Origin: Paracoccaceae bacterium
Lineage (GTDB): Bacteria > Pseudomonadota > Alphaproteobacteria > Rhodobacterales > Rhodobacteraceae
Direction: 5' to 3'
DNA: 64,000 nt
Assembly: GCA_947504705.1 (NCBI GenBank)
Contig: CANNIA010000002.1
Span: forward strand, 113,867-177,866
Shown one piece after another: positions 2,013 to 40,737 of this stretch. The position numbers and the translations under genes are program-made. The notes under the pieces are model-generated. The model worked only from the letters and a program-made list of their open reading frames with translations, did not search any database and was not told the origin of the DNA. The first letter of the stretch is position 1. Every line of letters begins with the position of its first letter.

Positions 2013-2821
2013 TCACGGCGACAGGAACTTGGCCCCGGTGTCGCTGCCCTGCTCCGGCTTGATCCGCTTTGCCCCCGATTTCGGCACAGCGGTCGCGGCC
2101 AGACTTGTCGCCTTACCGCGCCGCAGGGCAGCCTTTAGCGCGGCGATGATGGCGGGCAATTCCATCGCCAGAAGGATTGTCCTGCCGTCCTGATCGAAAT
2201 GGGCCGAGGCGATCCCGACCACCTTTACCCGATAGCCGGTGCGTTCAAAGATCGGCGCGCCCAAGGCCAGACCCGCCGCGCCGAAGTCGACCCCGAAGAT
2301 CGCGTCCTGACACCCTCTATTCGTGCAGCCATCCTGCAGCCAAGGGGCCTCGACCTGACCTCCGCCAAAATAGGCAACTGCCAGATCGCCGACGTCTTCC
2401 GGCTAGCCACCGATTAGGCCGAAACGACCCCACTTGGCACCGGAGTTGCAAGCTCCAGAAGGGTGACATCGCGCTGGATCATCTCGGCGGAAGCGGGTTC
2501 CACGTGGCGATAACCCCTGTCAACAATCGTCCGGGTCAGGGCAGAGTCGGCAAGCGCGACCCCTTCGATCAGCCCCGCCCGAAACCGGACCCTACCCGCA
2601 TCGACCGGCGTGCCATCTTCGGCGATCACGCAGCTTGCTGCCGTCAGCACCAGATCAGGCGCAATCAGCGTTCCGGTGCAGAAGCCCAACTCACCGATAT
2701 CAACCCGACCAACCGGCTCCCGCCCGCGCAGTGCCTCCCGCGTGGTCACATGATCCAGGTCGGCCTAGGTGCAGGATGCACCCGCAAGCCAGGCCGCAAG
2801 CACCGCGCGCCCGACCCTTAT
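2013..2821 (-). pseudogene. Decayed tandem copy of the trypsin-like protease
   Basis: Translated on the minus strand, this stretch can be read as a homologue of the intact protease immediately upstream. Several lesions are visible. An in-frame run resembling a signal peptide (VLAAWLAGASC) begins with ATA directly at the neighbour's stop. An in-frame TAG at 2767-2765 follows it. The trypsin motif TAGHC is TAASC, so the catalytic His is lost. A frameshift lies around 2405-2416, where the first frame stops at TAA and a second frame resumes with PEDVGDLAVAYF, aligning with PVEGDKVAVVSY of the neighbour. The GSSGAP serine motif is replaced by LALGAP. Both proteins end in GAKF(L/V)SP. It cannot encode an active peptidase. 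Confidence 0.85.
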
Positions 2822-3645
2822 GGCGAGACGAACTTTGCCCCGATATCGACCCCGCCAGACAGCACGGTAACGCCCTTGGGTTTGAAGGCCGCACCCTGAC
2901 GGCTTGCCTCAAGCGCGGCTTCCAGCGCCGCAAGCGCCCCCGCCACCGGCACCGCCAGCGCGACCTTCTTGCCATCGGCTTCGGCCTTGGCGGAAATGAC
3001 CCCGACAATCCTCACCACGCCATCAATCGTCGAAAACACCGGCGCGCCCGAAGACCCAAAATCGACGCTGCAGGTCAGGACCATCGCCTCCGGCTCACTG
3101 ACCAACACATCGCAGCCCTCTTGGATCGACGGCGCATCCTCGCGGTACTGGGCATATGAGACGACCGCCACCTTGTCACCCTCGACCGGCGTCGCCCCGG
3201 TGTCGAACGGCTGCAGCGAGGGCAACAGGATCGGCTGGCTCAGCTCCAACAGCGCCATATCGGATGACACGGTGTCCAGGCTGTCCTTGGCCGAAAAGCG
3301 ATAATCTGGATGGGCCACCGCCCGTGCGACCTTGCGATAGGCCAGCGCCCGGCCATTGCGGAAACTCGCCTGAAACTCGATATCTTCGAGGGGCATTTGA
3401 ACCCCTGTCACCCGGTCATAAAGGCAGTGCCCGGCGGTCAGCACCAGTTGCGGCGCAATCAGCGCGCCCGAGCAAAAGCCGTGATCCCCAAGGATCAGGC
3501 GCCCCACCCCATCCCAGCCGCGCACATCGTCCGCCGTGTCCAGACTGCCGAGGGCGGCATCTTCGGCACGGGCCAGCGACGACAGCGCCCAAAGGCCCGT
3601 GAGTGCCGCCAAAACCAGTCGCCGCATGCCAAAGTCAGCCGTCAT
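2818..3645 (-). CDS. Secreted trypsin-like serine protease (S1 family)
   Basis: This 275-residue protein has a signal peptide (LVLAALTGLWALSSLARA, cleavage near residue 27) and a compact chymotrypsin-fold domain. The catalytic triad is visible: His73 in LVLTAGHC, Asp129 in SSDMALLEL and Ser199 in GSSGAPVF. Cys pairs around GFCSG/GHC and GCD/LTC are consistent with disulfides, so it probably works in the periplasm or outside the cell. The start at 3645 (MTADFG) has AGGTG seven bases upstream, while an internal start at 3627 is possible. A degenerate copy follows directly downstream. The upstream region carries the 11-bp-periodic AAGAC array, which probably controls it. The substrate is unknown. 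Confidence 0.85.
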   Translation of the reverse strand: MTADFGMRRLVLAALTGLWALSSLARAEDAALGSLDTADDVRGWDGVGRLILGDHGFCSGALIAPQLVLTAGHCLYDRVTGVQMPLEDIEFQASFRNGRALAYRKVARAVAHPDYRFSAKDSLDTVSSDMALLELSQPILLPSLQPFDTGATPVEGDKVAVVSYAQYREDAPSIQEGCDVLVSEPEAMVLTCSVDFGSSGAPVFSTIDGVVRIVGVISAKAEADGKKVALAVPVAGALAALEAALEASRQGAAFKPKGVTVLSGGVDIGAKFVSP

Positions 3646-3731
3646 CCTTGTACACCTAGGGGCCAAGTTGGGCAGATTTTTGTCGCCGGTTGCAAGTTCG
3701 ATCTTCGGCCCATTGCACCCCGCCACGCCCC

Positions 3732-3812
3732 GATTCGTCCGGCAGGGTTAACGGCCTTGGCGTTCTCCAAGGGCAAGACGGATGGAAGACACATGGAAGA
3801 CATAAGCAAGAC
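3732..3812 (-). promoter_or_regulatory. Composite regulatory element, copy 1: four 11-bp AAGAC repeats plus GGTTAAC and GATTCG
   Basis: Plus-strand AAGAC occurs at 3775, 3786, 3797 and 3808, exactly 11 bp apart. GGTTAAC lies at 3746-3752 and GATTCG at 3732-3737. The same parts recur at 17945-18026 with the same order and nearly the same spacing. Read toward the protease gene, the order is four GTCTT(C/G)C sites, GCCAAG, GTTAACC and CGAATC. OmpR/PhoB-family response regulators bind direct repeats with 11-bp period, so an array for such a regulator is inferred. GTTAACC also resembles a CtrA half-site. Confidence 0.6.
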
Positions 3813-3873
3813 AGCCAAAATGCCGCTAAGTTTCTGAATTAACGTCCCGTTCCCCGTAGGTCGGTGCGCGCCC

Positions 3874-5169
3874 CTACTCCCTCACAACAGCCAACCCCCG
3901 CGGCTTCGGCCCCCCGGTCGCCCAGTCCAGAAGTTCCACCGTATGCACCACCGGCACCCCGGTTCCCGAGCCGATCTGCATCATGCAACCGATATTGCCG
4001 GCAACTATCACGTCCGGAGCTTTCGCCTCCAGCGTCGCCACCTTCCGCCGTTTCAATTCGCCGCTGATCTCGGGCTGCAACAGGTTGTAGGTCCCCGCCG
4101 AACCGCAGCAGAGATGGCTGTCGGCAGGCTCCACCACCTGAAACCCCACCCGTTTCAGCAAATCCTTCGGCGCGGCCTTGATCTGCTGGCCATGTTGCAA
4201 GCTGCATGCCGCGTGATAGGCAACCCGCAGGCCCTTTGCCGCCCCCTCCGGCAGGCCGATCTCTGCCAGCACCTCGCTGATATCCTTGGCCAATCCAGCC
4301 ACTACCGCCGCGTCTTCGGCCAAGGGATCGCTCCGGAACATATGCCCGTAATCCTTCACGGTCGTCCCACAGCCTGAGGTGTTGATGACAACCGCATCCA
4401 ACCCCCCAGCCCGCTTTTCCGCCATCCATGCCCGGATATTCGCTGCCACTGAAGCATGGGCCAGCGATTCTTTCCCCATGTGATGGGTCAAGGCCCCACA
4501 GCAGCCCGCACCCTTTGCCACAACGACTTCGCAGCCCAACCGCCGCAAAAGCCGGATCGTCGCGTCGTTGATGTCCGTATTCAGCACCGTCTGCGCGCAG
4601 CCGGTCAGCAAGGCCACCCGCCGCCGCCGCGCGCCCAGCGCCGGAAAGACCTGCGGGGCGTCGTTCCGGCTAACCTTGGGCAGGCGCTTGGGGGCCATCG
4701 CCAGCATCGCCTTAAGCCGCTTGTCTGGTAGAAGAAAGCTAAGCGGTTTCATGATCTTGGCCCCCAAAATCGCCAAGCGGAACCGCCCCGGATAGGGGAT
4801 GATCCGCGCCAGAACCGCCCGCAAGACACGGTCCATCACTGGGCGCTTGTAGGTCGCCTCGATGTGCACCCGGGCATGGTCAACCAAATGCATGTAATGC
4901 ACGCCGCTTGGGCAAGTGGTCATACAGGCAAGGCACGACAGGCAACGGTCGACATGCCGAACCGTCCGCTCGTCCGCGGCGCGGCCGGTCTCCAGCATCT
5001 CCTTGATCAGGTAGATGCGCCCCCTTGGGCTGTCCAACTCGTCACCAAGCACTTGATAAGTCGGGCAAGTCGCGGTGCAAAATCCGCAATGGACGCAGGC
5101 CCGCAGGATCTCGTTCGCGCGGGCGGTGCCGGGATCTTCCAGCTGTTCAGGGGTGAAAAAGGTTTGCAT
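3874..5169 (-). CDS. glcF: Glycolate oxidase iron-sulfur subunit GlcF
   Basis: The 431-residue protein starts MQTFFTPEQL. It carries two 4Fe-4S ferredoxin motifs (CVHCGFCTATCP and CLSCLACMTTCP) in the first 110 residues. Two CCG-type cysteine-rich domains follow (GAGCCGALTHHMG and HLCCGSAGTYN), the architecture of GlcF/heterodisulfide-reductase-like subunits. With GlcD and GlcE it oxidises glycolate to glyoxylate and passes electrons to the respiratory chain. Its ATG overlaps the glcE stop by one base (TGATG), indicating translational coupling. It is the last gene of glcDEF. A longer open frame extends upstream inside glcE and is rejected. Confidence 0.95.
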   Translation of the reverse strand: MQTFFTPEQLEDPGTARANEILRACVHCGFCTATCPTYQVLGDELDSPRGRIYLIKEMLETGRAADERTVRHVDRCLSCLACMTTCPSGVHYMHLVDHARVHIEATYKRPVMDRVLRAVLARIIPYPGRFRLAILGAKIMKPLSFLLPDKRLKAMLAMAPKRLPKVSRNDAPQVFPALGARRRRVALLTGCAQTVLNTDINDATIRLLRRLGCEVVVAKGAGCCGALTHHMGKESLAHASVAANIRAWMAEKRAGGLDAVVINTSGCGTTVKDYGHMFRSDPLAEDAAVVAGLAKDISEVLAEIGLPEGAAKGLRVAYHAACSLQHGQQIKAAPKDLLKRVGFQVVEPADSHLCCGSAGTYNLLQPEISGELKRRKVATLEAKAPDVIVAGNIGCMMQIGSGTGVPVVHTVELLDWATGGPKPRGLAVVRE

Positions 5170-6251: not shown

Positions 6252-6260
6252 TCCCAGTCT

Positions 6261-6312
6261 TTCTTCTGTTCACAAATATCCCACGGGGGTCCGGGGGTGT
6301 GAAACCCCCGGC
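6261..6312 (-). repeat. Rhodobacteraceae intergenic repeat A, copy 1
   Basis: A 51-bp unit begins TTCTTCTGTTC, contains AAATATCC and ends in a CCGGGGG-N7-CCCCCGG hairpin (6291-6311). It is 50/51 identical to the copy at 34231-34281 and related to the copies at 39519-39568 (inverted) and 23515-23558. It lies inside the glc operon between glcD and glcE. Confidence 0.85.
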
Positions 6313-6316
6313 GCTT

Positions 6317-15261: not shown

Positions 15262-15379
15262 ACCTCAAGCTCCGTTTAGGGTCGGTTGCCGCCAGTAAAG
15301 CGGGTTATCCCGCCGGGCACAAATGGCAAAAGGCGACTTGACACAAATCCTCGTGAGAGATGCGTCATCCGCCGGGCCC

Positions 15380-15427
15380 AAAATCCTTAAGCAAGGATTT
15401 TGACAAATTTCTTCGTTAAGAGATTTG
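15380..15427. repeat. Double-hairpin intergenic repeat B, copy 1
   Basis: Two adjacent stem-loops occur: AAAATCCTT-AAGC-AAGGATTTT (perfect 9-bp stem) and CAAATTTCTT-CGTT-AAGAGATTTG (9 of 10 pairs). A near-identical pair is at 27504-27550. It lies in the divergent gap 15262-15504 between moxR and the DUF1285 gene, so it is not simply a terminator here. The rest of this gap contains a small GCGGG-TTAT-CCCGC hairpin and nothing else recognised. Confidence 0.8.
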
Positions 15428-15504
15428 GCCCCGGCTGACCCCGCGCTGCCGATCCCCGCCCCACCCCCCATTGCGCCCCGCCCGTTCCCCATTACATTGG
15501 CCGC

Positions 15505-16858: not shown

Positions 16859-17923
16859 TCAGTCGGTCAAGTCCACCATCGCCTCGATTTCCACCCGCAT
16901 TTGCGGATAGGACAGGGTCTTGAACCCCGCCAGAACCGCCGGAACCGGGCCGCGCCCAAGGGCCAAAAGCTCTGCCGCGCCGGGGGCCACGCCCGCAAGC
17001 CCCCCTTCCGGCACTTCGTAATAGACGCCAAGGTGCAGCTGTTGGCGCACCTTTCCCAGCCCATCAGCCACCCGGTCGATGCAGCCAAGGCTTCGACGCA
17101 CTTGCCGGTCAAGGTGATCCGGGTCGATGACCTGCGCCTGCGCGTCCAGCGAGACCTGCCCGCCGACAAAGCCGATGCCACCGCAGGCCAGCCCGTGTTT
17201 GTAGGGCAGATGGATTGGCCAATCCCATAGCCCCTCGGGCCAGCTATGCGTCTTGGGCAGGGCCTGGCCATCCTCGCCGATCATCCCCATCAGTTCGATC
17301 TGGATCGACCTGCCCTCGGGCAAGGCCACCGGCAAGGATATCGCCGTCGCAATCGGGCCTGGTTCGACATAGAAACTTGCCGTTGCAAGGGCCGAAGGCG
17401 CCCAGGCCTCTTTGGTGCCCTCGGCGTGATACCAGCGGTTCATCTTGACGACATCGCCAAAGCCAGCCCCCAAGCCCGCAAGTGTCTGGCCCAAGGCCTG
17501 CATGACCGACCGGCTTTCATCGGCCAAACTGCCGACCGTCGCCCCCGCCTGACCACCCAGAAAAAGGAACCGCCCCTGCCGCAGCCCGGCGACGAAGGGC
17601 CCCGCCCCCACCGTAGCAAGCCGCTTGCGCGGAACCGCCACCGCCTCGACCGACAAAGCGCCATCGCCCGGACCGGCCCAGGCCACCGGCACCAGCGTCA
17701 AAGTGGTCTGCAGGCCATTGGGCAAGACAGCCCCCAAAGCTGCACGCAGCGCTTGGGGATCAAAAGCGTCATGCCCGTAGAAGGCGCGCAGAAGACAAAG
17801 GTCGCAAAGACTCGCCCCCTGACCCTCCAGCGAAAGGGCGATTGCCGCGATCTGTTCGGCCGGACTGCCAGCAGCCCCGCCGGTCATCACCAATTCGCCG
17901 ATCCTTGCTGCCGTCAGCACCAT
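16859..17923 (-). CDS. Double-domain Rid/YjgF-like protein
   Basis: The 354-residue protein reads as an N-terminal unit (about 1-110) followed by two Rid/YjgF-like repeats. One is VAGLRQGRFLFLGGQAGATVG ... GLGAGFGDVVKMNRWYH. The other is LACGGIGFVGGQVSLDAQAQVI ... VADGLGKVRQQLHLGVYY. Rid proteins hydrolyse reactive enamine/imine intermediates, but it is unclear whether this copy is catalytic: the Arg that binds the substrate carboxylate is not obvious. The start at 17923 (MVLTAARIGEL) has AAGGGGAAG upstream, and the longer frame to 18028 runs through the regulatory element and is rejected. The 11-bp AAGAC array lies 66 bases upstream. Confidence 0.7.
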   Translation of the reverse strand: MVLTAARIGELVMTGGAAGSPAEQIAAIALSLEGQGASLCDLCLLRAFYGHDAFDPQALRAALGAVLPNGLQTTLTLVPVAWAGPGDGALSVEAVAVPRKRLATVGAGPFVAGLRQGRFLFLGGQAGATVGSLADESRSVMQALGQTLAGLGAGFGDVVKMNRWYHAEGTKEAWAPSALATASFYVEPGPIATAISLPVALPEGRSIQIELMGMIGEDGQALPKTHSWPEGLWDWPIHLPYKHGLACGGIGFVGGQVSLDAQAQVIDPDHLDRQVRRSLGCIDRVADGLGKVRQQLHLGVYYEVPEGGLAGVAPGAAELLALGRGPVPAVLAGFKTLSYPQMRVEIEAMVDLTD

Positions 17924-17944
17924 GACACTTCCCCTTCCCGACCT

Positions 17945-18026
17945 GATTCGCAGCCTAAGGTTAACAAAGCTTGGCCGCGCCGCGTGGGAAGACGCTTGGA
18001 AGACACATGGAAGACGCGGGCAAGAC
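17945..18026 (-). promoter_or_regulatory. Composite regulatory element, copy 2: four 11-bp AAGAC repeats plus GGTTAAC and GATTCG
   Basis: AAGAC occurs at 17989, 18000, 18011 and 18022, exactly 11 bp apart. GGTTAAC lies at 17959-17965 and GATTCG at 17945-17950. GATTCG-to-GGTTAAC spacing (14 bp between starts) is the same as in copy 1, and GGTTAAC to the first AAGAC is 30 bp here and 29 bp there. The run TGGAAGACACATGGAAGAC is shared by both copies. An inverted GTCTTCC follows at 18031-18037. It lies between the Rid-like gene and the divergent zinc-finger gene. Confidence 0.6.
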
Positions 18027-18161
18027 AAGTGTCTTCCGGGTAAACCCTTGACCTAACGCACAGAACGCCGCCTCAGCCTGACAAGAGGCGCAAACGGCTC
18101 CCTTGTGCCTCCCGTCCCTTCCCCGCTAAAAGCAATCACGGACAGAATAGGAACCCGACCC

Positions 18162-18353
18162 ATGCCAATCGAAGCCCCCGAGACCCAGACCGTCACCAGC
18201 TGGAAAGTCGCCTGCGACGGCGGCGAGGGTGCGCTTGGCCATCCGCGCGTCTGGCTTTCGATCCCGCAAGACACCGGATTTGTCGAATGCGGCTATTGCG
18301 ACAAGCGCTATGTCATCGACCGCGCCCACACCCACGCCCACGACGACCACTAG
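18162..18353 (+). CDS. CHCC-type zinc-finger domain protein
   Basis: The 63-residue protein has the zf-CHCC family core: CDGG near residue 18, [10 protein letters not shown], and [12 protein letters not shown] (Cys-x2-Cys), with a His-rich tail. Ligands would be Cys18, His27, Cys43 and Cys46. The family includes the small mitochondrial complex I subunit NDUFS6 and many short bacterial proteins. A zinc- or complex-assembly role is an inference. The start at 18162 fits the family, and a longer frame from 18105 is less likely. Confidence 0.85.
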
Positions 18354-18382: not shown

Positions 18383-18426
18383 GCAAATCTTTTCGAAAAG
18401 ATTTGCAAAAGCCTTCCAAGGCTTTT
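18383..18426. terminator. Double hairpin, repeat-B-like, probable terminator
   Basis: A perfect palindrome GCAAATCTTTT-CG-type stem (18383-18406) is followed directly by AAAAGCCTT-CC-AAGGCTTTT (18407-18426), which ends in TTTT. It lies 30 bases after the zinc-finger gene and just before the next gene, so termination of the former is likely. Confidence 0.65.
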
Positions 18427-18440
18427 GGCCCCTGACCCCG

Positions 18441-23505: not shown

Positions 23506-23514
23506 CAAGCCCTT

Positions 23515-23660
23515 TCTCTTCCCAAATATCCCCGGGGGGAGGGGCCGCATGGCCCCTGGGGGGCAGCGCCCCCTACGCCCCTAGGACCCGTGCCCTGCAC
23601 GGGACCGAGAGACCAGACTTGCGGCGGCACGCCGCTCAATTTGAAAACCGTCCTAACGGT
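23515..23660. repeat. Hairpin cluster with a diverged repeat A
   Basis: A diverged copy of repeat A (core CCCAAATATCC) is followed by four perfect hairpins: AGGGGCC-GCAT-GGCCCCT (23540-23557), CCCGTGC-CCT-GCACGGG (23587-23603), GCGGCG-GCA-CGCCGC (23621-23635) and ACCGT-CCTA-ACGGT (23647-23660). It lies between two convergent genes, so bidirectional termination is plausible. Confidence 0.7.
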
Positions 23661-27112: not shown

Positions 27113-27514
27113 ATGGAAACTGTGACCGGTGGCTGCCTTTGCGGCGCTCTTCGCTGTATCGCCACCGGACAGCCCTACCGGGTTGGCATCTGCCACTGCA
27201 TGGACTGCCGCAAGAACCACGGCGCACTTTTCCACGCCTCGGCGATCTTCCCCGAAAACGCCGTCACTCTGACCGGAACCTGGGCCACCTGGGGCGACCG
27301 GTCCTTCTGCCCGACCTGCGGCTCGCCGGTCTTTGCCCATATCGAGGACGAGATCGGGATCAACTTTGGCACGTTCGACACGACGGACCAGTTCCAACCG
27401 ACCTATGAACTGTGGACCATCCTCCGCGAAAGCTGGCTGCCGGAGTTTACCGGCACGCGGCATTATGACAAGAACCGCGAGAGTATGACACGCAGCGAGG
27501 ACCAAAATCCTTAA
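27113..27514 (+). CDS. GFA (glutathione-dependent formaldehyde-activating)-family protein
   Basis: The 133-residue protein has the zinc ligands of the GFA/CENP-V fold: GGCLCGALRC, ICHCMDCRKNHGA and FCPTCGSPVFA. Family members bind glutathione or act on small thiol adducts, and most have no proven activity. Start 27113 follows the sulfotransferase stop by 4 bases. A longer frame within the upstream gene is rejected. The 3' end overlaps the first arm of a double-hairpin repeat. Confidence 0.87.
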   Translation: METVTGGCLCGALRCIATGQPYRVGICHCMDCRKNHGALFHASAIFPENAVTLTGTWATWGDRSFCPTCGSPVFAHIEDEIGINFGTFDTTDQFQPTYELWTILRESWLPEFTGTRHYDKNRESMTRSEDQNP

Positions 27515-27550
27515 GTAAGGATTTTGACAGATTTCTTATTCAAGAAATCT
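27504..27550. repeat. Double-hairpin intergenic repeat B, copy 2 (bidirectional terminator)
   Basis: AAAATCCTT-AAGT-AAGGATTTT is followed by AGATTTCTT-ATTC-AAGAAATCT, closely matching 15380-15427 but with different loops and a matched arm change (AGATTT/AAATCT here, CAAATTT/GATTTG there). It lies between the convergent GFA and puuD genes, where it can terminate both. Confidence 0.75.
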
Positions 27551-27561
27551 TCCCCCGAACG

Positions 27562-31959: not shown

Positions 31960-33375
31960 TTGACCCGTTACCCCCGAGATTTCCGTGGCCATGGCCCGAA
32001 CGCCCCCGATGCCCGCTGGCCGGGTGGGGCGAAAATCGCCGTTTCCATCGTCCTCAACTATGAAGAGGGCGGCGAGAACAACGTTCTGCACGGCGATGCC
32101 GGGTCCGAGGCGTTCCTGTCCGACATCGCCGGTGCAGCGCCTTGGCCCGGCCAGCGGCATTGGAACATGGAATCGATCTACGACTACGGCGCGCGGGCCG
32201 GGTTCTGGCGGCTGCACCGGCTGTTCACTGGCATGGACATTCCGGTCACCATCTACGGCGTGACCACGGCCTTGGCGCGGAACCCCGAACAGGTGGCCGC
32301 GATGAAATCCGCCGGATGGGAGATCGCCAGCCACGGGCTGAAATGGGTCGACCACCGCGACATGCCCGCAGCCGAGGAAGCCGCCCAGATCGCTGAAAGT
32401 TTCCGCCTGCACACGGAAGTCGTGGGGGAGCCGCCGCAAGGCTGGTACACCGGTCGCTGCAGCATGAACACGGTGCGGCTGACGGCGGAAACCAAGGCGC
32501 TCGCCTGGATTTCCGACACCTATGATGACGACCTGCCCTATTGGCGCGAATATGGCGACCATGACCAGTTGGTGATCCCCTACACGCTTGAAGCCAACGA
32601 CATGCGCTTTGCCACCTCCCCAGGCTACATCACGGGCGAGCAGTTCTACAGCTACCTGAAAGACAGCTTCGACACCCTCTACGCCGAAGGCGAAACAGGG
32701 GCTGCGAAGATGTTCTCCATCGGCCTCCATTGCCGCCTGATCGGCCGCCCCGGCAAGATTGCCGGCCTCAAGCGCTTCCTTGACTATGCGCGCGGACATG
32801 AGGGCGTCTGGTTCCCGCGCCGCATCGACATTGCCCGGCATTGGGCGACCACCCATCCGCACAAACGCTTGGAACGCCCCAGCGAGATGACGCGCGCCCG
32901 ATTCGTCGAGCGCTTCGGCTCTATCTTCGAACATTCCCCCTGGATCGCCGACCGTGCCTTTGACCTTGAACTCGGCCCCGCGCACGACAGCGCCACCGGC
33001 CTCCACAACGCGCTGACCCGGATGTTCCGCTCGGCCAGCCCTGACGAACGCCTCGGCGTCCTGACCGCCCACCCCGACCTTGCCGGGAAACTGGCGGCGG
33101 CGAAACGCCTGACGCCCGAGTCTACTGCCGAACAAGCTGCCGCCGCCTTGGACAACCTGACAGACGAGGAACGCGAAACCTTCCAGCGCCTGAACGCCGA
33201 CTATGTCGCCAAACACGGCTTCCCCTTCATCATCGCCGTCCGCGACAACACCAAGGCCACCATCCTTGCGGCCTTCCAGACCCGCATCGGCAACGACACT
33301 GCCACCGAATTCGCCACTGCCTGCCGTCAGGTGGAACGCATCGCCGAACTTCGCCTCAAGGACCAACTGCCATGA
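31960..33375 (+). CDS. puuE-uraD: Fusion of PuuE allantoinase and OHCU decarboxylase (UraD)
   Basis: The 471-residue protein is a two-enzyme fusion. Residues about 1-300 form a polysaccharide-deacetylase-type allantoinase: TRYPRDFRGHG, IVLNYEEGGENN, ESIYDYGARAGFWR, IASHGLKWVDH, GWYTGRCSMNT and FSIGLHCRLIGRPG. Residues about 305-471 form 2-oxo-4-hydroxy-4-carboxy-5-ureidoimidazoline decarboxylase: FEHSPWIADRAF, VLTAHPDLAGKL and KHGFPFIIAVRDN. Together they turn OHCU into allantoin and then allantoate. The start is TTG at 31960: AAGGAG lies upstream and the product then begins like other PuuE proteins. The stop overlaps the next gene (ATGA). Confidence 0.93.
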   Translation: MTRYPRDFRGHGPNAPDARWPGGAKIAVSIVLNYEEGGENNVLHGDAGSEAFLSDIAGAAPWPGQRHWNMESIYDYGARAGFWRLHRLFTGMDIPVTIYGVTTALARNPEQVAAMKSAGWEIASHGLKWVDHRDMPAAEEAAQIAESFRLHTEVVGEPPQGWYTGRCSMNTVRLTAETKALAWISDTYDDDLPYWREYGDHDQLVIPYTLEANDMRFATSPGYITGEQFYSYLKDSFDTLYAEGETGAAKMFSIGLHCRLIGRPGKIAGLKRFLDYARGHEGVWFPRRIDIARHWATTHPHKRLERPSEMTRARFVERFGSIFEHSPWIADRAFDLELGPAHDSATGLHNALTRMFRSASPDERLGVLTAHPDLAGKLAAAKRLTPESTAEQAAAALDNLTDEERETFQRLNADYVAKHGFPFIIAVRDNTKATILAAFQTRIGNDTATEFATACRQVERIAELRLKDQLP

Positions 33376-34226
33376 CCGACAAGCATCCCGGTTACTACGC
33401 CCCGCCCGGTGGCCTTCCGCCCCAGACCGCCCTTATGACCGGCCGCGCCGTCTTTACCGGCAGCTATTGCTTCATCCCCAAGGCCTGCTTTTCCGACATC
33501 GTCACCAGCTATCTGCCCGGTTGGCGGGAGACCCGCCTCTGGCTGATCGCCCGCCCGATGTCCGGCTTTGCCGAAACCTTTTCGCAATACGTCATGGAGG
33601 TCCAACCCGGCGGCGGCTCTGACGCCCCCGACGCCGAGGCCGGGGCCGAACACTGGCTCTTCTTCACCGAAGGCCTCGCCACACTGATGATCAACGGCAC
33701 CGGCTATGAGATGGACGCAGGCTCCTACGCCTACATCCCCCCCGCCACCACCTGGACCCTGCTGGCCGAAGGCCCGACCCCCGCCCGCTTCCACTGGCTG
33801 CGCAAGCTTTACGAACCCGCCCCCGGTGTCACGACGCCAGAAGTCTTCGTGACCAACGAACGTGACGTCCCCATCCGTTTCATGCCCGACACCGAAGGTC
33901 GCTGGGGTACCACCCGGTTCGTAGACCCCGAAGACATCCGCCACGACGCCCACGTGAACATCGTGACCTTCCAGCCCGGCGGCGTGATCCCGTTTGAAGA
34001 AACCCATGTCATGGAACACGGCCTCTACGTCCTTGAAGGCAAGGCCGTCTACAAACTGAACCAGGATTGGGTCGAGGTTGAAGCCGGCGATTTCATGTGG
34101 CTGCGCGCCTATTGCCCGCAAGCCTGCTATGCCGCTGGCCCGACCCCCTTCCGTTATCTCCTCTACAAGGACGTCAACCGCCACGCCAAACTGCGCGGCC
34201 CCGGCGCCTTTGGGCCAACCAGATGA
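33372..34226 (+). CDS. (S)-ureidoglycine aminohydrolase, bicupin
   Basis: The 284-residue protein has two cupin units. The second (about 185-265) shows VNIVTFQPGGVIPFEETHVMEHGLYVLEGKAVY with metal-binding Glu, His and Gln/His residues, as in AllE/UglB. The N-terminal part YYAPPGGLPPQTALMTGRAVFT is family-typical. It hydrolyses ureidoglycine to ureidoglycolate and ammonia. The ATG overlaps the puuE-uraD stop by 4 bases. Gene names allE and uglB are both used for this enzyme. The preceding step, allantoate amidohydrolase, is not encoded in this window. Confidence 0.9.
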   Translation: MTDKHPGYYAPPGGLPPQTALMTGRAVFTGSYCFIPKACFSDIVTSYLPGWRETRLWLIARPMSGFAETFSQYVMEVQPGGGSDAPDAEAGAEHWLFFTEGLATLMINGTGYEMDAGSYAYIPPATTWTLLAEGPTPARFHWLRKLYEPAPGVTTPEVFVTNERDVPIRFMPDTEGRWGTTRFVDPEDIRHDAHVNIVTFQPGGVIPFEETHVMEHGLYVLEGKAVYKLNQDWVEVEAGDFMWLRAYCPQACYAAGPTPFRYLLYKDVNRHAKLRGPGAFGPTR

Positions 34227-34230
34227 TCTT

Positions 34231-34281
34231 TTCTTCTGTTCCCAAATATCCCACGGGGGTCCGGGGGTGTGAAACCCCCGG
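34231..34281 (+). repeat. Rhodobacteraceae intergenic repeat A, copy 2
   Basis: 51 bases differ from copy 1 (6261-6311) at one position only and carry the same CCGGGGG-N7-CCCCCGG hairpin. It lies between the ureidoglycine aminohydrolase gene and allA, within a probable operon. Confidence 0.85.
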
Positions 34282-34305
34282 CGGCCGACCACAGGGCGCA
34301 GCCCG

Positions 34306-34797
34306 ATGAAAACCCTGCACACCGAACCCCTCACCGCCGCAACCTTCGCCCCCTTCGGCGATGTGCTTGACGCAACCGGCGACTTCCGCCTGATCAACGC
34401 CGGCCTTTGCCAACGCCACCACGACCGCGCGCGCCTCGATTTCGCGCCCGAGGTCAACCCAGACAACCGGGCCGGGATTTCCATCTTCAAGGCCGAACCC
34501 CGCGCGCTGCCCTATGCCTTCGACCTGATCGAACGCCACCCCGAAGGCTCCCAAGCCTTCATCCCGATGACCGCCGATCCCTTCCTCGTCATCGTCTCGC
34601 TTGGCCCCCAACACCCCCCGCGCGCTTTCCTGACCAACGGCGCGCAAGGCATCAACCTGCATCGCGGCACTTGGCATGGCGTCCTTACCCCCCTTGCCAC
34701 CCCCGGCCTTTTCGCCGTGGTCGACCGGATCGGCCAGACCCCGAACCTTGAGGAATTCCGCTATCCCAACCCCTGGACCGTGCATGCGCCCGGCTGA
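34306..34797 (+). CDS. allA: Ureidoglycolate lyase
   Basis: The 163-residue protein matches AllA: LTAATFAPFGDVLDATG, QRHHDRARLDF, GISIFKAEPRALP, ERHPEGSQAFIPM and LHRGTWHGVLTPL. It splits ureidoglycolate to glyoxylate and urea, the last step of purine degradation here. The glyoxylate can enter the bhc cycle encoded 4 kb downstream. The gap to the upstream gene holds repeat A. Confidence 0.94.
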   Translation: MKTLHTEPLTAATFAPFGDVLDATGDFRLINAGLCQRHHDRARLDFAPEVNPDNRAGISIFKAEPRALPYAFDLIERHPEGSQAFIPMTADPFLVIVSLGPQHPPRAFLTNGAQGINLHRGTWHGVLTPLATPGLFAVVDRIGQTPNLEEFRYPNPWTVHAPG

Positions 34798-34848
34798 CAA
34801 AGGCGCCGCGCCCCGCTAGGTTGGCCCAAACCCAGCCGGAGGTCGCCC

Positions 34849-36543
34849 ATGCGCCGTCTTGCCCTTCTCCTCGCGCTTTTGGCCACCCCCGCCGCGGCGC
34901 AGGCTTTTGGTGATTGCACCGATCCGGCATATTTCAAGACCTTCGGCATCAACACCGCCGAGGGCCTGACCTGCGAGGTCATCGCCCAGGAAAACGCCAC
35001 GGTGAACGGCCAGGCCATCGGCGTCCGCGCGATCCGGGCCAAAACCACCCCGGCGGAATGGGCCGACCCCTTCGGCAAGGAAACAATCGACGCCACCCTG
35101 ACCGCCTTCACCACCTGGGAAGGCTATGCCACCCAGCTTGGCTTCAAGTTTCCCTCGGTCACCATCTATATCACCGATCCCCTTGGCCCCGGCATCGAAG
35201 CCCCGGGTGAGCGGTTCGACAACGCCTTCGCCGATGCCAACTGGTTCGCCAAGCCCGGTGAATGCTTCATCCGCTTCAATACCCAGAAATCCGCCAACGT
35301 CGGCATCGATCTTATCCGCACCATCATGGGGCACGAGGGCTTTCATTGCGTGCAGGGCGAAAGCTTTGCCCCCGCCCTTTTCGGCGCCAAGGCCTCTGCG
35401 GCTTGGTGGCAGGAAGGCACGGCCAGTTTCTTCGGCAACCTTGCCCATTTCACCGAAAAGGATGCCGATAACCTGGGGGCGACCTTCGCGGCCAAGATCC
35501 AGACCACGCCCCTGACCCAGCTCACCTATCCCTCGATGACCTTCTTTGCTTTCCTCTGGGGCGAAGGGCCGGATGCCACGGCCGCCTTTTTCGCCGGGTT
35601 GCCCACTTCGGAAGGCGAAGCCGCGCAGATGGAGGCGCTGCTTGCCTCGGTCGGCCCCGACCGGCTGCAACGCTTTGCCCAAGCCATGGTCGACGGCACC
35701 GTGCGGATGCCCTCGGGCTATCAGTTCCCCGCCTTGCCCGATCCTTCGACCACCACCTTCACTCAAGATGGCAAGGTCGATTTCCCCTCGGCCCCGTTCA
35801 CCATCCTGCAGCACGCCCTGCATTTCACCGGCGGCAACTACTCCGTCGCCAGCGGGATCGAGTTCTTTTCGCGCAAGCAGGGCACCGCCGACCCCTGGGA
35901 GCCGATGCCGATGGATATCCAGCCAGAGGACTGCAAGGACATTTACATGCTGCATATCGTGCGATTCGACACCGACACGATCCCTGCGAAATACCCCCGC
36001 CCGTTGAACGCGTTCCTCTATCTGCCTTGCTGGGAATGCGAAAAGCTGCCCAAGATGGATCAATGCCTTGCGGGCACCTGGCGGCTGTCAAACGACAGTC
36101 TGATCAGCTTCCTGCAATCGCGGCGCGTCACTGAAGAGGTCAACTACAACTCGATGAAGGGCCAGATCATCCTGACGATGAACCCTGACGGCACTGCCCA
36201 ATGGCTGGCCGAAGATGTCGCCGTCGCCGCCGACTACCTGCCGGAATCGCTCGCCGGAATGGAGATCCCGTTCTACATCACGGTCGAGGCTTTCGGGATC
36301 GACCAGTCCGAATGGTCCGGCGCGGAAGGCACCGCCCATATCTGCCCGGTCTCGCCGGGGATCGACTTCACCTCCACCGTCGAAAGCAGCCTGACGGGCG
36401 AGGTCAAGGTCGAATCCTCCGGCATGGTACAGGCGATGTCGGTGGCCTATGACTGCTCGCCCCAGACCTTGGCGATGCAGTATACCGGCCCGATGAACCT
36501 TGGCGAAGCCGCCCCGCGCTGGATGTTCGAGAGGGTGAAATAG
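34849..36543 (+). CDS. Secreted protein with gluzincin-like HEXXH motif
   Basis: The 564-residue protein has a signal peptide (MRRLALLLALLATPAAAQA). No named family is recognised. At residues 158-170 it has TIMGHEGFHCVQG, an HEXXH zinc motif (His162, Glu163, His166). WWQEGTASFFG follows with Glu189 23 residues on, the spacing and context of the third ligand in gluzincin peptidases. The C-terminal ~200 residues contain several Cys (WECEKL, DQCLAGTW, HICPVS, YDCSPQ) and beta-rich sequence. A periplasmic or extracellular metallopeptidase is inferred. The next gene starts 2 bases after the stop. Confidence 0.65.
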   Translation: MRRLALLLALLATPAAAQAFGDCTDPAYFKTFGINTAEGLTCEVIAQENATVNGQAIGVRAIRAKTTPAEWADPFGKETIDATLTAFTTWEGYATQLGFKFPSVTIYITDPLGPGIEAPGERFDNAFADANWFAKPGECFIRFNTQKSANVGIDLIRTIMGHEGFHCVQGESFAPALFGAKASAAWWQEGTASFFGNLAHFTEKDADNLGATFAAKIQTTPLTQLTYPSMTFFAFLWGEGPDATAAFFAGLPTSEGEAAQMEALLASVGPDRLQRFAQAMVDGTVRMPSGYQFPALPDPSTTTFTQDGKVDFPSAPFTILQHALHFTGGNYSVASGIEFFSRKQGTADPWEPMPMDIQPEDCKDIYMLHIVRFDTDTIPAKYPRPLNAFLYLPCWECEKLPKMDQCLAGTWRLSNDSLISFLQSRRVTEEVNYNSMKGQIILTMNPDGTAQWLAEDVAVAADYLPESLAGMEIPFYITVEAFGIDQSEWSGAEGTAHICPVSPGIDFTSTVESSLTGEVKVESSGMVQAMSVAYDCSPQTLAMQYTGPMNLGEAAPRWMFERVK

Positions 36544-36544
36544 A

Positions 36545-37321
36545 GTGGCAACCGTTTCCCCTCGGGTCTTCATCCGCTGGCTTTATGAAGGCAAGGGCAA
36601 GGTCGGCGACCGGTTCCGCTATCTGTTGCTGGCTTTTGACCTTTTGACAGTCTTATGGCTGGTGGCCTCGTCTTTCCTGCCGCGCGGAACACACAGCACG
36701 GCTATCGGCGTCGCCATCGGCCTGATTTTCCTGGCGGACCTTCTTGCACGACTCTCGGTCTCGCGCCGCCGGTTGAAGGACCTGGTCAGCTTCTGGGGCA
36801 TAGCCGACATTCTGGTGATCGTCTCGCTGTTGGTGCCGATCTGGGGCGAGGGCTTGGCCTTCCTGCGGGTGCTCAGGCTTTACCGCGTCTTCCACTCACC
36901 CCAGACTCTCGACCAACTCCGACAGGACGTTCCCGGCTTTGGTCCGCACGAAACCACGATCCGCGCGGCGTTGAACCTGTTGATCTTCATCTTCGCGATG
37001 ACGTCACTGGTCTATCAGACGCAGTCTGGTGTGAATGAGAAGATCGCGAACTATGTCGATGCGCTTTACTTCACCGTGACAACGCTCTCGACCACCGGCT
37101 TTGGCGACATCACGCTGGTCGGCAACGGCGGCAAGCTTCTGTCGGTTGCGATCATGATCTTCGGTATCAGCCTTTTCCTGCGGCTGATCCAGGTCGTCCT
37201 GCGCCCAGCCAAGGCGCAATTCCCTTGCCCAACTTGCGGACTTAGCCGCCACGACCACGACGCCGTGCATTGCAAGGCCTGTGGCACGGTGCTGAACATC
37301 CCCGATGACGGGATGGATTAA
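36545..37321 (+). CDS. Potassium channel protein with C-terminal zinc ribbon
   Basis: The 258-residue protein has a voltage-sensor-like set of TM helices (about 27-43, 53-70, 85-102) and an Arg-containing segment FLRVLRLYRVFHSP. A pore domain of two TM helices flanks TTLSTTGFGDI (about 180-190), a K+ selectivity filter variant. Unusually it ends in a zinc ribbon: CPTCGLSRHDHDAVHCKACG. The start is GTG, 1 base after the upstream stop. The ribbon may be a metal sensor or assembly domain in the cytoplasm. Confidence 0.82.
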   Translation: MATVSPRVFIRWLYEGKGKVGDRFRYLLLAFDLLTVLWLVASSFLPRGTHSTAIGVAIGLIFLADLLARLSVSRRRLKDLVSFWGIADILVIVSLLVPIWGEGLAFLRVLRLYRVFHSPQTLDQLRQDVPGFGPHETTIRAALNLLIFIFAMTSLVYQTQSGVNEKIANYVDALYFTVTTLSTTGFGDITLVGNGGKLLSVAIMIFGISLFLRLIQVVLRPAKAQFPCPTCGLSRHDHDAVHCKACGTVLNIPDDGMD

Positions 37322-37410
37322 CGGGTCGGACAGATGTTACCAAATCCCTAATGACCACGCGTAATCCTTTGGTCTAATTCGATAATCCAAAAACGCCCAC
37401 CGTGGACAGA

Positions 37411-38385
37411 TCAGCCCATCCGGACCGCCATATCCAGCATCCGATTGGAAAACCCCCATTCATTGTCATACCAGCCAAAGACCCGCAGCATCCCCTGCTC
37501 CGTGATTTTCGTCTCCGGGCAGGCCATCACGACCGACTCCGGCCGGGCCCGCAGGTCGGTTGAAACCAGCGGCCGGTCCGTCGCCCCGATCACCCCTCCA
37601 GCCGCGCGGAAGGCCTCGTTGACCTCCAGGGCCCCGGGCCGCTTTTCCGTCACCAAATGGAAATCGACACAGGAAACCGAGGCCACCGGCACCCGCACCG
37701 CCTGCGCCGCGATCCGGCCAGAAAGTTCTGGCAGCACCCCATCCAAAAGCCGCGCCGCCGAGGTCGTGGTCGGCACCATCGACAGCGCCGCCGCCCGGCT
37801 GCGGGGGTAGTCGGCGGAAGGGGCATCAACGGTTGGCTGGCTGCCGGTATAGCAGTGGACCGTCGTCATCGACCCGGTCACGATCCCCCAGTTCCGGTGG
37901 ATCAACTTCGCCAGCGGGGCGAGGGCATTCGTGGTGCAGGAGGCGTTCGAGACGATCCTTTGCCCCGCCAGCCGATCCTCATTCGCCCCCAGAACCACCG
38001 TCACATCCGCCGCCGAAGACGGCCCCGAGATCAGCACCCGTCCCGCCCCTGCCCGCAACCCCCGCTCCGCCACTTCCCGAGCATCGGCCCGACCAGTGCA
38101 TTCCATCACCAGATCGACGCCTTGAAGATCAAGGCTGGACAAGTCCGGGGTCCGATGCAGCGGGATCCGGCGGCCATCGACGACCAATGCCCTTCCCTCC
38201 AGCGTGACAGAGCCGGGCCAGGGGCCGAAGACAGAGTCGAATTCAAAGAGATACGCGCACATCTCGGGTGCTGCGATGTCGTTGATCCCGGCGATTTCAA
38301 AGCCCGGCCAGCGGTCCGGGGACTGCAAGTAAGCCCGCAGCACCGACCGCCCGATCCGTCCGAAGCCGTTGATGAAGGCCCGCAT
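37411..38385 (-). CDS. Glyceraldehyde-3-phosphate dehydrogenase family protein
   Basis: The 324-residue protein has the NAD-binding INGFGRIGRSVLRAY at the N-terminus, the catalytic SNASCTTNALAPL (Cys about 149) and the C-terminal WYDNEWGFSNRMLDM. It is somewhat divergent from the usual glycolytic Gap and could also be an erythrose-4-phosphate dehydrogenase, as the sequence alone does not separate them. It is convergent with the K+ channel gene (89-bp gap, nothing recognised). It lies downstream of bhcD on the same strand but behind a hairpin, so it is probably its own unit. Confidence 0.85.
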   Translation of the reverse strand: MRAFINGFGRIGRSVLRAYLQSPDRWPGFEIAGINDIAAPEMCAYLFEFDSVFGPWPGSVTLEGRALVVDGRRIPLHRTPDLSSLDLQGVDLVMECTGRADAREVAERGLRAGAGRVLISGPSSAADVTVVLGANEDRLAGQRIVSNASCTTNALAPLAKLIHRNWGIVTGSMTTVHCYTGSQPTVDAPSADYPRSRAAALSMVPTTTSAARLLDGVLPELSGRIAAQAVRVPVASVSCVDFHLVTEKRPGALEVNEAFRAAGGVIGATDRPLVSTDLRARPESVVMACPETKITEQGMLRVFGWYDNEWGFSNRMLDMAVRMG

Positions 38386-38496
38386 TTACCGCACTCCTTA
38401 ACCGATTTCCTCAATCAGAGCATGGGTTTGGTACGACGGCAACTGGTCGGGTCGGAAATCTTGTGCCTGATACAATCAGCGCGCAGCCGAAGCGGG

Positions 38497-38522
38497 CCAA
38501 ATTTCTTGAGTAAGAAATTTGG
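38497..38522 (-). terminator. Hairpin after bhcD (repeat-B type)
   Basis: CCAAATTTCTT-GAGT-AAGAAATTTGG is a perfect 11-bp stem with a 4-base loop, 8 bases after the bhcD stop, and matches the second hairpin of repeat B. It likely ends the bhc transcript or protects its 3' end. The remaining part of the 145-bp gap shows nothing else. Confidence 0.65.
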
Positions 38523-38530
38523 GCCCCATC

Positions 38531-39490
38531 TCAGACCCCGACGTCAATCCCCATTCCCCGCTCACGGGCGCGGGCTACGGCAACGGCTGCGACGGCGAGG
38601 TCTTGCAGGCCGACACCGGTGCCGTCGAAGAGGGTGATCTCTTCAGCAGACCGCCGCCCCGGATCGCGTCCGATCAGGACTTCGCCGAGGGGGGTGATGG
38701 CGTGGGCGTCCAGCGTGCCTGCGGCGACGGCGTGTTGCGCCTCGCCGATAGAGATCGATTGCGCGACCTCATCCGTGAAGACATGGGCAGCAGCGACAAG
38801 GGCCGGGTCCACCTCTTGCTTGCCTTTGGTATCGGTGCCCATGCAGGCGAGATGGGTGCCGGGGCTGACATGCGCCGCCATCAGGCTAGCGGCGGGCGAG
38901 GAGGTGATGGTGATGATCACATCGGCCTCTCGCATCCGGGGCAGATCCACAGCCTCGAACGGCAGGCCCAGTTCGGCGGCGACGGCTCCCAGTTTCGGCA
39001 GCATGTCGGGGTGCAGGTTCCAGGCGATCACCCGTTCAAAGCGGCGGACTTTGGCAGCGGCGCGGAGTTGGAAGCCAGCCTGATGGCCTGCGCCAACGAT
39101 CCCCAGCACGCGCGCGTCTTTGCGGGCCAGCCGGTCGATGGAGATTGCCGAAGCCGCAGCGGTGCGGAGTGCTGTCAGAAGATTGCCGCCGACCATGGCT
39201 TGCGGCTTGCCGGTTTTGGGGTCGAACAGGAACACGCTGGATTGGTGGTTGATCATGCCCTTGTCGCCATTGCCGGGGAAATAGCCCCCTGCCTTGACGC
39301 CCAGCATCGCACCTGCCCGGTCGAGGCCCGACTTGAAACCGTATTGCCGGCCTTCCCCCAGAGCCTCACGCACCACAGGGAAGTTGTAGGCATCGCCACG
39401 CGCCATCGAGGCGAAGCAGGCCTCAATGGCCTTGAACGCATCGTCAGCGGAGACGAGTTGGGCGATGAGGGCTTCGGGGACGATGAGCAT
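38531..39490 (-). CDS. bhcD: Iminosuccinate reductase BhcD (ornithine cyclodeaminase fold)
   Basis: The 319-residue protein has the ornithine cyclodeaminase/mu-crystallin fold: GVKAGGYFPGNGDKGMINHQSSVFLFD, GGNLLTALRTAAASAISI and the NAD(P) motif GIVGAGHQAGFQL. In the beta-hydroxyaspartate cycle this protein reduces iminosuccinate to L-aspartate. The assignment rests on its place behind bhcA, bhcB and bhcC in the order known from Paracoccus denitrificans. AAGGA precedes the ATG. Repeat A sits in the 83-bp gap between bhcC and bhcD. Confidence 0.92.
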   Translation of the reverse strand: MLIVPEALIAQLVSADDAFKAIEACFASMARGDAYNFPVVREALGEGRQYGFKSGLDRAGAMLGVKAGGYFPGNGDKGMINHQSSVFLFDPKTGKPQAMVGGNLLTALRTAAASAISIDRLARKDARVLGIVGAGHQAGFQLRAAAKVRRFERVIAWNLHPDMLPKLGAVAAELGLPFEAVDLPRMREADVIITITSSPAASLMAAHVSPGTHLACMGTDTKGKQEVDPALVAAAHVFTDEVAQSISIGEAQHAVAAGTLDAHAITPLGEVLIGRDPGRRSAEEITLFDGTGVGLQDLAVAAVAVARARERGMGIDVGV

Positions 39491-39518
39491 GGGTTGGTCC
39501 TTCGGGACTGGCGTTGGA

Positions 39519-39568
39519 CTGGGGGTTTCACACCCCCAGACCCCCTGGGATATTTGAGAACAGAAGAA
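39519..39568 (-). repeat. Rhodobacteraceae intergenic repeat A, copy 3 (inverted)
   Basis: On the minus strand the unit TTCTTCTGTTC-N-CAAATATCCCA recurs. Its hairpin is CTGGGGG-N7-CCCCCAG: one stem pair is C-G in copies 1 and 2 and T-A here, a compensatory change, with the same 7-base loop. It lies between bhcC and bhcD. Confidence 0.85.
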
Positions 39569-39573
39569 AGCCT

Positions 39574-40737
39574 TCAGTAGGCCTTGCCGCGCGCCGAGAC
39601 GGGCCAGACCACCTCGACCTTGCCGCCCCTTACGCCGACATACCAGTCATGCACGTTGCAGGTCGGGTCGCAGTGGCCGGGGACGAGGCGGAGTTTGTCG
39701 TTGACCTTCAAGACACCTTGCGGGTCATCGACGACGCCGTGTTCATCGCTGCATTTGATGTATTTCACATCTGTGCGGCCAAAGACCACCGGCAGGCCAG
39801 AGTCGACCGACTGGGCCTTGAGGCCTGCGTCGACGACCGCTTTGTCGGGCTTCACATGGCTCATCACCGAGGTCAGGATAAACAGCGAATTCTCCCATTC
39901 GCCTTGGTCGATCCGGTGTCCGTCCTTGCCAAGGATGCGGCCGTAATCGGCATCCATGAAGGCGTAGGAGCCGCACTGAAGCTCGTTGTAAACCCCCGAG
40001 CCACTTTCGAAGTAGTAGGAGCCAGTGCCGCCGCCCGAGATGAGATCGGCTTTCAGACCCACCGCTTCCAAAGCATCGGCGCAGGATTTCACCTGGGCGA
40101 TGGCGGCATCAAGCTTGGCCTTGCGGTCTTCGTAATTGTCCATGTGCTGCATCGCGCCCTGATAGGCCTGAATGCCAGAGAACTTGAGGTTCGGGGCGGC
40201 GGCAACCGCCTTGGCGATGGCCACGACTTCCTCGGGCGTCTTCACGCCGCATCGGCCCGCGCCGCAATCGATCTCGATGAAGACCTCCAGCGTGGTGCCA
40301 TGCTTGACGGCGGCTTTCGACAGGTCAGCGACATTGGCCAGATCATCAACGCAGACGATGGTGCGGCAGCCGAATTTCGGCAGGCGGGCCAGGCGGTCGA
40401 TCTTGGCGGGGTCGCGGACCTGATTGCTGACCAGAATGTCCTTGATGCCGCCACGGGCGAAGACCTCGGCTTCCGAGACCTTCTGGCAGCAGACGCCGAC
40501 CGCGCCGCCAAGGCGTTCCTGCAGCTTCTGCACATCGACCGACTTGTGCATCTTGCCGTGACTGCGGTGGCGCATGCCGTGGGCTTTTGCATAGTCGCCC
40601 ATTTTGACGATGTTCCGCTCCAGCGCGTCGAGATCAAGGATCAGGCAGGGGGTCTGGATATCCTTTTCATCCATGCCGGGCAGGGCGGGGATGTCATAGC
40701 CGACTTCAAGGCCTTCGAAGGTGGTTTGTTTGTTCAT
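39574..40737 (-). CDS. bhcC: Beta-hydroxyaspartate aldolase BhcC
   Basis: The 387-residue protein is a PLP-dependent D-threonine-aldolase-like enzyme: DIQTPCLILDLDALERNIVKM, then RHRSHGKMHKSVDV with the PLP lysine context, and the C-terminal GHCDPTCNVHDWYVGVRGG with metal-binding His and Cys. BhcC joins glycine and glyoxylate to beta-hydroxyaspartate. Four bases separate it from the bhcB stop. The repeat A copy downstream is inside the operon. Confidence 0.95.
   Translation of the reverse strand: MNKQTTFEGLEVGYDIPALPGMDEKDIQTPCLILDLDALERNIVKMGDYAKAHGMRHRSHGKMHKSVDVQKLQERLGGAVGVCCQKVSEAEVFARGGIKDILVSNQVRDPAKIDRLARLPKFGCRTIVCVDDLANVADLSKAAVKHGTTLEVFIEIDCGAGRCGVKTPEEVVAIAKAVAAAPNLKFSGIQAYQGAMQHMDNYEDRKAKLDAAIAQVKSCADALEAVGLKADLISGGGTGSYYFESGSGVYNELQCGSYAFMDADYGRILGKDGHRIDQGEWENSLFILTSVMSHVKPDKAVVDAGLKAQSVDSGLPVVFGRTDVKYIKCSDEHGVVDDPQGVLKVNDKLRLVPGHCDPTCNVHDWYVGVRGGKVEVVWPVSARGKAY

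Follow-up and report, generated by a model that had tools for sequence, protein, structure and literature searches.

A dispersed polar intergenic element of Tabrizicola and near relatives, oriented with the local strand asymmetry

Two copies of the element in the window

The window, i.e. the whole stretch of 64,000 nucleotides analysed from contig CANNIA010000002.1 of a Paracoccaceae bacterium, contains two copies of a composite DNA element. Copy 1 lies between the genes for a trypsin-like protease and an Fe-S/CCG-domain protein, and copy 2 between the genes for a Rid/YjgF-like protein and a small zinc-finger protein (Table 1). Both copies were matched by a profile model, R1, which was built from copies picked on exact arms together with the window copy.

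Table 1. Element copies, their parts and the neighbouring genes in the window
Feature	Position	Strand	Basis
Element copy 1	3729..3856	+	R1, 57.7 bits, E 4e-17
Copy 1 motifs	GATTCG 3732, GGTTAAC 3746, AAGAC 3775/3786/3797/3808, TTAA 3839	+	letters
Left neighbour of copy 1: trypsin-like protease	2821..3645	-	Pfam PF00089, E 1e-13
Right neighbour of copy 1: Fe-S/CCG-domain protein	3877..5169	-	Pfam PF02754, PF13183
Element copy 2	17942..18068	+	R1, 60.7 bits, E 5e-18 over the window, filters off
Left arm GATTCG, copy 2	17945..17950	+	letters
Left arm GGTTAAC, copy 2	17959..17965	+	letters
Array of four AAGAC units, 11-bp period, copy 2	17989..18026	+	starts 17989, 18000, 18011, 18022
Inverted unit GTCTTCC, 3' of the copy 2 array	18031..18037	-	letters
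Degenerate right arm, copy 2: CTAACGCACA (consensus TTAACNCAGCG)	18053..18062	+	31 bp past last AAGAC start
Left neighbour of copy 2: Rid/YjgF-like protein	16862..17923	-	Pfam PF01042, E 3e-12
Right neighbour of copy 2: small zinc-finger protein	18162..18353	+	Pfam PF10276 zf-CHCC, E 7e-18

The sequence-only reading of this DNA had reported AAGAC, GATTCG, GGTTAAC and GTCTTCC motifs in copy 2, and every one of them lies where it had been placed. The step of 14 bp from the start of GATTCG to the start of GGTTAAC is equal in the two copies, as had been described, and the common core proposed for them, the 19-mer TGGAAGACACATGGAAGAC, has exactly two exact matches within the window. With up to three mismatches, this 19-mer has 4 matches in the window versus 0 expected (100 shuffles). 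In the genome to which the window belongs (G000; 3.72 Mb in 87 contigs), three AAGAC at an 11-bp period gave 47 overlapping matches, corresponding to 28 sites, and the reversed pattern gave 0 matches. A chance pairing of the two copies was ruled out by the shuffles and the reversed-pattern control. The limits first proposed for copy 2, 17945-18026, proved too narrow, the right arm also being conserved and the element spanning ~137 bp. In copy 2 itself the right arm is degenerate, with CTAACGC at 18053, and no IHF-like end can be recognised. Inverted CTTCC or CTTGCC motifs comparable to its GTCTTCC are found near the array in some other copies.

The window also carries a dispersed repeat, TTTCTTCTGTTCNCAAATATCCCACGGGGGTCCGGGGGTGTGAAACCCCCGGCG, at 6260-6313, 23514-23539, 34230-34283 and 39521-39573 (three direct, one of them partial, and one inverted). 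Hairpin-rich, terminator-like repeats, e.g. CCAAAATCCTTAAGNAAGGATTTTGAC, are located at 15375-15433, 27499-27557 and ~18383-18429.

Architecture, distribution and gene context

The consensus layout of the element is GATTCG-N8-GGTTAAC, 23 bp, three to five direct 11-bp units, 26 bp and TTAACNCAGCGTTC, often with a terminal IHF-like CARNNNNTTR, for a total of ~137 bp. Each of the two TTAA-bearing arms thereby stands ~30 bp from the array, whose units are in helical phase. Among 43 sites picked by AAGAC alone, 27 have GATTC 43 to 45 bp before the first AAGAC, and 31 have GTTAA 28 to 30 bp before it. At the 32 AAGAC-chosen sites with a left arm, the right-arm TTAA lies 31 bp past the start of the last unit, with three or four units alike, and each of its bases is conserved at 22 to 26 of the sites. 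The distance from GATTCG to CAGCG is 119 bp in 50 of 58 arm-chosen copies from named records, though the pattern permitted 27 lengths; the earlier claim of a fixed spacing under constraint stands. In the 50 arm-chosen copies, whose core was unselected, A[GT]AC occurs at four fixed places in 27, 41, 46 and 45 copies, and A[GT]AC pairs are spaced by a multiple of 11 bp in 197 of 249 cases, where shuffling gave at most 7. The IHF consensus is WATCARNNNNTTR. CARNNNNTTR was found at one position in 41 of the 50 arm-chosen copies and at the matching place in 13 of the 43 AAGAC-chosen sites, for a background of 0.00056 per position, with the WAT part of the consensus unmatched.

The array units are of several types: GGAAGAC in G000 and G023, GTAGAGACGGAAGGAAGAC in several species, and GCCAGAC or TGCATAC types elsewhere. 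More than one type is possible within one genome, and what is apparently one orthologous locus bears differing types across species. CcrM GANTC was rejected as the constraint on the left arm: GATTC itself is constrained, because the N is nearly always T.

RNAalifold found 0 conserved pairs over 44 copies and Rfam gave no match in the window; we therefore consider this a DNA-level element. A small-RNA gene or a transcription terminator would be consistent with the intergenic location and with the inverted units near some arrays, but given these null results and the presence of the element in either orientation relative to the adjoining genes, it is very improbable.

To describe the distribution, R1 matches were counted per genome: 31 in G000 (24 at ≥39 bits, full-length-like), 17 in G022, 5 in G016, 11 in G024, 11 in G001 and 16 in G132, counts that include some partial matches and are minimum values, 150 or 103 candidates having been scored in each genome out of ~400-1300. 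In 400 kb of arbitrary G022 stretches, R1 gave one weak match. The triple AAGAC was detected in 15 of 61 relatives, every one within the genus. Of 14 genomes from the genus, 13 carry the left arm (GATTCG-N6-9-GGTTAAC), as do 4 of the 26 others tested, and its reversed pattern had 2 matches in all 40. A GTTAA-plus-array pattern matched in 5 of 394 family genomes (G000 and G132, with single matches in G110, G176 and G419); since the reversed control matched in 19 of 394, the single matches carry no weight alone. Among 32 further genomes, R1 matched in 8 of 8 from the genus and, outside the genus, in G176 and G419. It matched in 0 of the 22 other non-genus genomes, including G110, G208 and G241, which have single pattern matches.

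The element is a dispersed family of Tabrizicola, the probable genus of the window's genome, and near relatives, and it is also present in Cypionkella aquatica and a Pseudorhodobacter bin. Two sites in G176, a genome of another genus (C5:85765-85879 and C45:39673-39786), carry GGTTAAC and the right arm as in the Tabrizicola element, with an A-rich 11-bp array whose unit cores are, e.g., TATAC, TGAC and TTAC. No description of the element was found in the open-licence literature searched.

Many copies are retained at the matching intergenic site across species, and clean gain or loss of the whole element was observed at the two sites examined (L035:10033; L032/L058 compared with L173). At L035:10033 the whole element is present in G000 and the same intergenic site is empty in G022, G024 and G001. 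This discrete presence or absence at the same site in related species could point to remains of a mobile element (MITE/REP-like) that spread formerly and is now decaying. Against it, the spacers look unrelated between the copies of one genome while the motif columns are conserved, many positions are common to several species, and no terminal repeats or target duplication were seen by eye when the two occupied and empty sites were aligned; we regard such an origin as quite improbable. The BIME/RIB of E. coli, which are REP clusters with an IHF site, resemble the element in being dispersed, intergenic, composite, present in tens of copies and equipped with an IHF-like part. The element differs from them in lacking a palindromic REP unit and a conserved sequence between its motifs, and in its strong polarity. 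By the features that define REP and BIME, no conserved palindrome (0 pairs, 44 copies) and no near-identical copies (unrelated spacers) were found.

At none of 70 copies does the overlap with a predicted gene exceed 30 bp. Read in the direction of the element, the flanking genes are convergent at 23 copies, divergent at 14 and tandem at 12 and 21; this count used 70 of the 71 full elements, with genes called by our own codon-usage script instead of a standard caller. A previous tally found 9 of 32 element gaps to be convergent, versus 17 of the 154 other gaps that were 150 bp or longer. No common theme links the gene neighbours; 41 proteins were listed for 21 sites, and 30 of these were scanned. 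They include protease, Rid-like (twice), zf-CHCC, UvrC/CDP-OH transferase, Fur, ZnuA, alanyl-tRNA synthetase and ABC transporters, and several, namely UvrC, Lhr-like helicase, AlkZ-like and HRDC exonuclease, have nucleic acids as substrates. The gap between pyrH and frr holds the element in five genomes. A Rho-rut site on the C/U-rich strand was rejected, the right-hand gene having no consistent strand.

The conserved spacing had first been read as the mark of a regulator shared by two genes, the Rid-like and the protease gene. That idea is not supported, given the 31 R1 matches in the genome and the 23 of 70 copies between convergent genes, where neither gene starts. Because copies are found in all gene orientations, a two-gene promoter regulator is not the main story; a shared binding factor for the element is likely. 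The expected presence of the element at orthologous genes was borne out by many same-site recurrences in other species, with the reservation that it also occurs between pyrH and frr and downstream of genes. In its fuller form this view makes the element a transcription-factor operator, e.g. for an OmpR/PhoB-type response regulator bound to the 11-bp repeats together with CtrA half-sites, with the Rid-like gene and the protease gene in its regulon. Direct repeats of 11 bp, comparable to pho boxes, and the TTAA half-sites are consistent with it, as are the 14 of 70 copies between divergent genes and the copy at L044, the second to have a YjgF/Rid-type neighbour. The convergent copies, the lack of a single gene theme in the 30 proteins and a strand-composition polarity unrelated to gene direction make an operator unlikely.

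GTTAACC had in addition been proposed as a possible CtrA half-site. TTAA half-sites are present, and both arms of the element share TTAA(C) with CtrA sites. The known CtrA site is given in PMC6180460 as a full TTAA-N7-TTAA, or a half-site in promoters. By comparison, the spacing TTAA-N7-TTAA is absent from the element consensus, which has a single TTAA per arm, the two being ~93 bp apart and flanking another array.

Element orientation and local strand composition

The mean GC skew on the element strand is negative for at least 10 kb leftward of the element and fades to zero within ~4 kb rightward. Over ±10 kb, (G-C)/(G+C) on the element strand is negative at 36 of the 43 first sites (25 of 28 in G000) and at 62 of 71 full elements from seven genomes, a set that omits 11 matches below 30 bits. 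The gene-strand-balanced third-position skew is negative in 55 of 67. When both gene directions were averaged, the third-position skew was -0.13 at -10 to -8 kb, -0.21 at -4 to -2 kb and -0.19 at -2 to 0 kb, then -0.12 at 0 to +2 kb, -0.04 at +2 to +4 kb and ~0 beyond.

The left-minus-right step was negative at 54 of the 58 elements, out of 71, that had enough flank, and was weakest in G000 (11 of 14). At loci of further genomes it was negative in 23 of 23 and 25 of 27 cases, or 23 of 23 and 21 of 22 without repeated loci. The first of these sets used 26 of 42 matches, omitting 13 loci from already-used genomes, both L083 and the weak L210, and 23 of them had enough flank; the second comprised 58 loci (L111-L168), of which 27 were flanked widely enough, 5 of the 27 being repeats of earlier loci. 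Species share ancestry and the genomes are not independent; the best correction for kinship is given by synteny groups, and the step is of one sign in 37 of 41 (p ~1e-7). In an offset scan the step peaked at +1 kb and was near 0 at +5 kb. Its absolute value was 0.092 at elements (n=61 with enough flank for this comparison) versus 0.046 at 51 control gaps from the same loci.

The step is unrelated to gene direction (r = 0.09) and is negative in 17 of 20, 8 of 8, 13 of 13 and 16 of 17 cases across four contexts. A gene-direction artefact was ruled out by this lack of correlation and by the third-position skew of both gene directions. A core/accessory border at the element was rejected because alignability is similar on both flanks, and inversions at the elements were rejected by reasoning alone, because an inversion would yield both polarities. 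Polarised substitutions included relatively more G>A than C>T left of the element and the reverse on the right. This data set is small, with 10 locus-by-pair comparisons, and one of its left bins differs from zero by no more than 1.6 SE; T>C/A>G rates also change across the element in the same direction as C>T/G>A, so no net substitution flow can be read from it.

The skew landscape is mosaic along a 1.8-Mb contig. Element orientations agree in 9 of 10 neighbour pairs less than 50 kb apart; for all pairs, they agree in 6 of 12 at 100-200 kb, 5 of 9 at 200-400 kb and 5 of 9 beyond 400 kb (16 of 30 beyond 100 kb). The 127 matches used for these pairs omit five above 35 bits (G176, G419, G008), each seemingly alone on its contig. 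One orientation per replichore is not supported by the long-range agreement or by the mosaic skew, with the caveat that inversions could scramble such a pattern and that ori and ter were not located.

Octamers in the left 9 kb of the 71 elements show a polarity beyond composition and include Chi- or KOPS-like candidates. On the element strand, the octamer CCTCCGCC occurs 78 times on the left versus 6 for its complement, and 16 versus 15 times on the right, both being top-strand counts.

Skew of the element-type sign can exist without the element, which weakens the case for the element as its cause. At pyrH-frr, in 20 genomes with no recognisable element (of the 22 lacking an R1 match), the left skew was negative in 19 and the step in 15. 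Mean left skew and step at this one locus were -0.056 and -0.035 without the element versus -0.090 and -0.052 where it is present (4 loci), a weakening that is not significant (p = 0.08 for the skew and 0.16 for the step); the pyrH-frr operon is leftward in all genomes compared, which confounds this element-absence test. L220 in G022, the counterpart of L199 in G024, has no recognisable element yet shows a step of -0.115 versus -0.125, in a place where the alignment is poor. The L035:10033 copy, unique to G000, has no step, G022 keeps part of the skew without the L032/L058 copy, and copy 1 has little skew farther than 1.7 kb leftward. Within the window, the GC skew goes from ~-0.23 to ~+0.03 across some 5 kb of positions 33000-40000, and R1 detected no element at the skew edge at 38-39 kb. 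This edge may have another cause or mark a diverged element.

The element could be a passenger or architecture site (nucleoid-organising or segregation) that is placed and oriented by an asymmetry from elsewhere, such as replication direction, ancient inversions or expression, and does not cause the skew. The skew at pyrH-frr without the element supports this, as does the polar octamer that tracks the same domains. Polar sequences such as KOPS and Chi are ~8 bp long, are numerous and follow replichores. The element is like them in having its orientation tied to strand asymmetry and unlike them in its ~137 bp, its tens of copies and its local polarity. A passenger should see like skew on both sides, whereas the two sides of the element differ in skew, the step falling within ~2 kb, and the orientation agreement, on small numbers, is short-range only, unlike that of replichore-wide polar sequences. 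We hold this explanation to be possible and rank it second, close behind the polar start site discussed below.

Local GC-skew peaks rich in core and GTA genes have been described in Rhodobacterales and were at least partly ascribed to codon choice (PMC9836097). They share with the element loci the taxonomic order and a strong local skew, and the part of that article consulted describes no such DNA element, which is also consistent with a passenger. Left of the element, the third-position skew keeps one chromosomal sign whichever way the genes run, which codon choice alone would not produce.

Possible roles of the element

The rigid architecture, the intergenic placement whatever the gene direction, the orientation tied to local strand asymmetry and the skew step are the basis for reading the element as a polar site. 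We tentatively favour a dispersed polar site of ~137 bp for a multi-protein complex, with a leftward replication- or recombination-like start as the likeliest mechanism. One protein on the array would make a row of direct-repeat contacts, and IHF or a similar bender would fold the right arm in. The complex would then start, steer or end a one-way DNA transaction, mainly leftward of the element; fork restart, strand exchange and strand transfer are candidates. Gene regulation by the element, if any, would be a side effect. A leftward start site is suggested because the bottom strand is G+T-rich on the left, as the leading strand usually is. A simple start at the element does not predict the right-side skew over 0-3 kb.

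The element resembles iteron origins, oriT and run-off replication origins in its helically phased direct repeats, its IHF-like site and its one-way compositional signature. It differs from them in having tens of chromosomal copies and in being known here from its compositional footprint alone.

A more specific and rather unlikely version of the polar start site is that the chromosomes of Tabrizicola and relatives have tens of start sites for a one-way process, resembling an origin, oriT or pac and each bound by a direct-repeat protein and IHF. A fork or single strand running leftward from them for at least 10 kb would, over the long term and in place of the main oriC, be the source of the local GC-skew peaks, and might be coupled to DNA exchange by gene transfer agents (GTA). 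The differing array units (GGAAGAC, GCCAGAC, TGCATAC types) would then suggest a recognition protein of fast-evolving specificity. Tomasch is said to have reported non-random GTA packaging in D. shibae in 2018. For RcGTA, the small terminase is hypothesised to package DNA at random for lack of a DNA-binding domain (PMC6854486).

The orientation of the element predicts the sign of the local skew step at about nine in ten loci, which makes the cause of the skew testable. If the element starts or steers DNA transactions from dispersed sites, we know of no bacterial counterpart to it. If it is a passenger, it would still be a polar site of the chromosome that is new and whose repeat units change.
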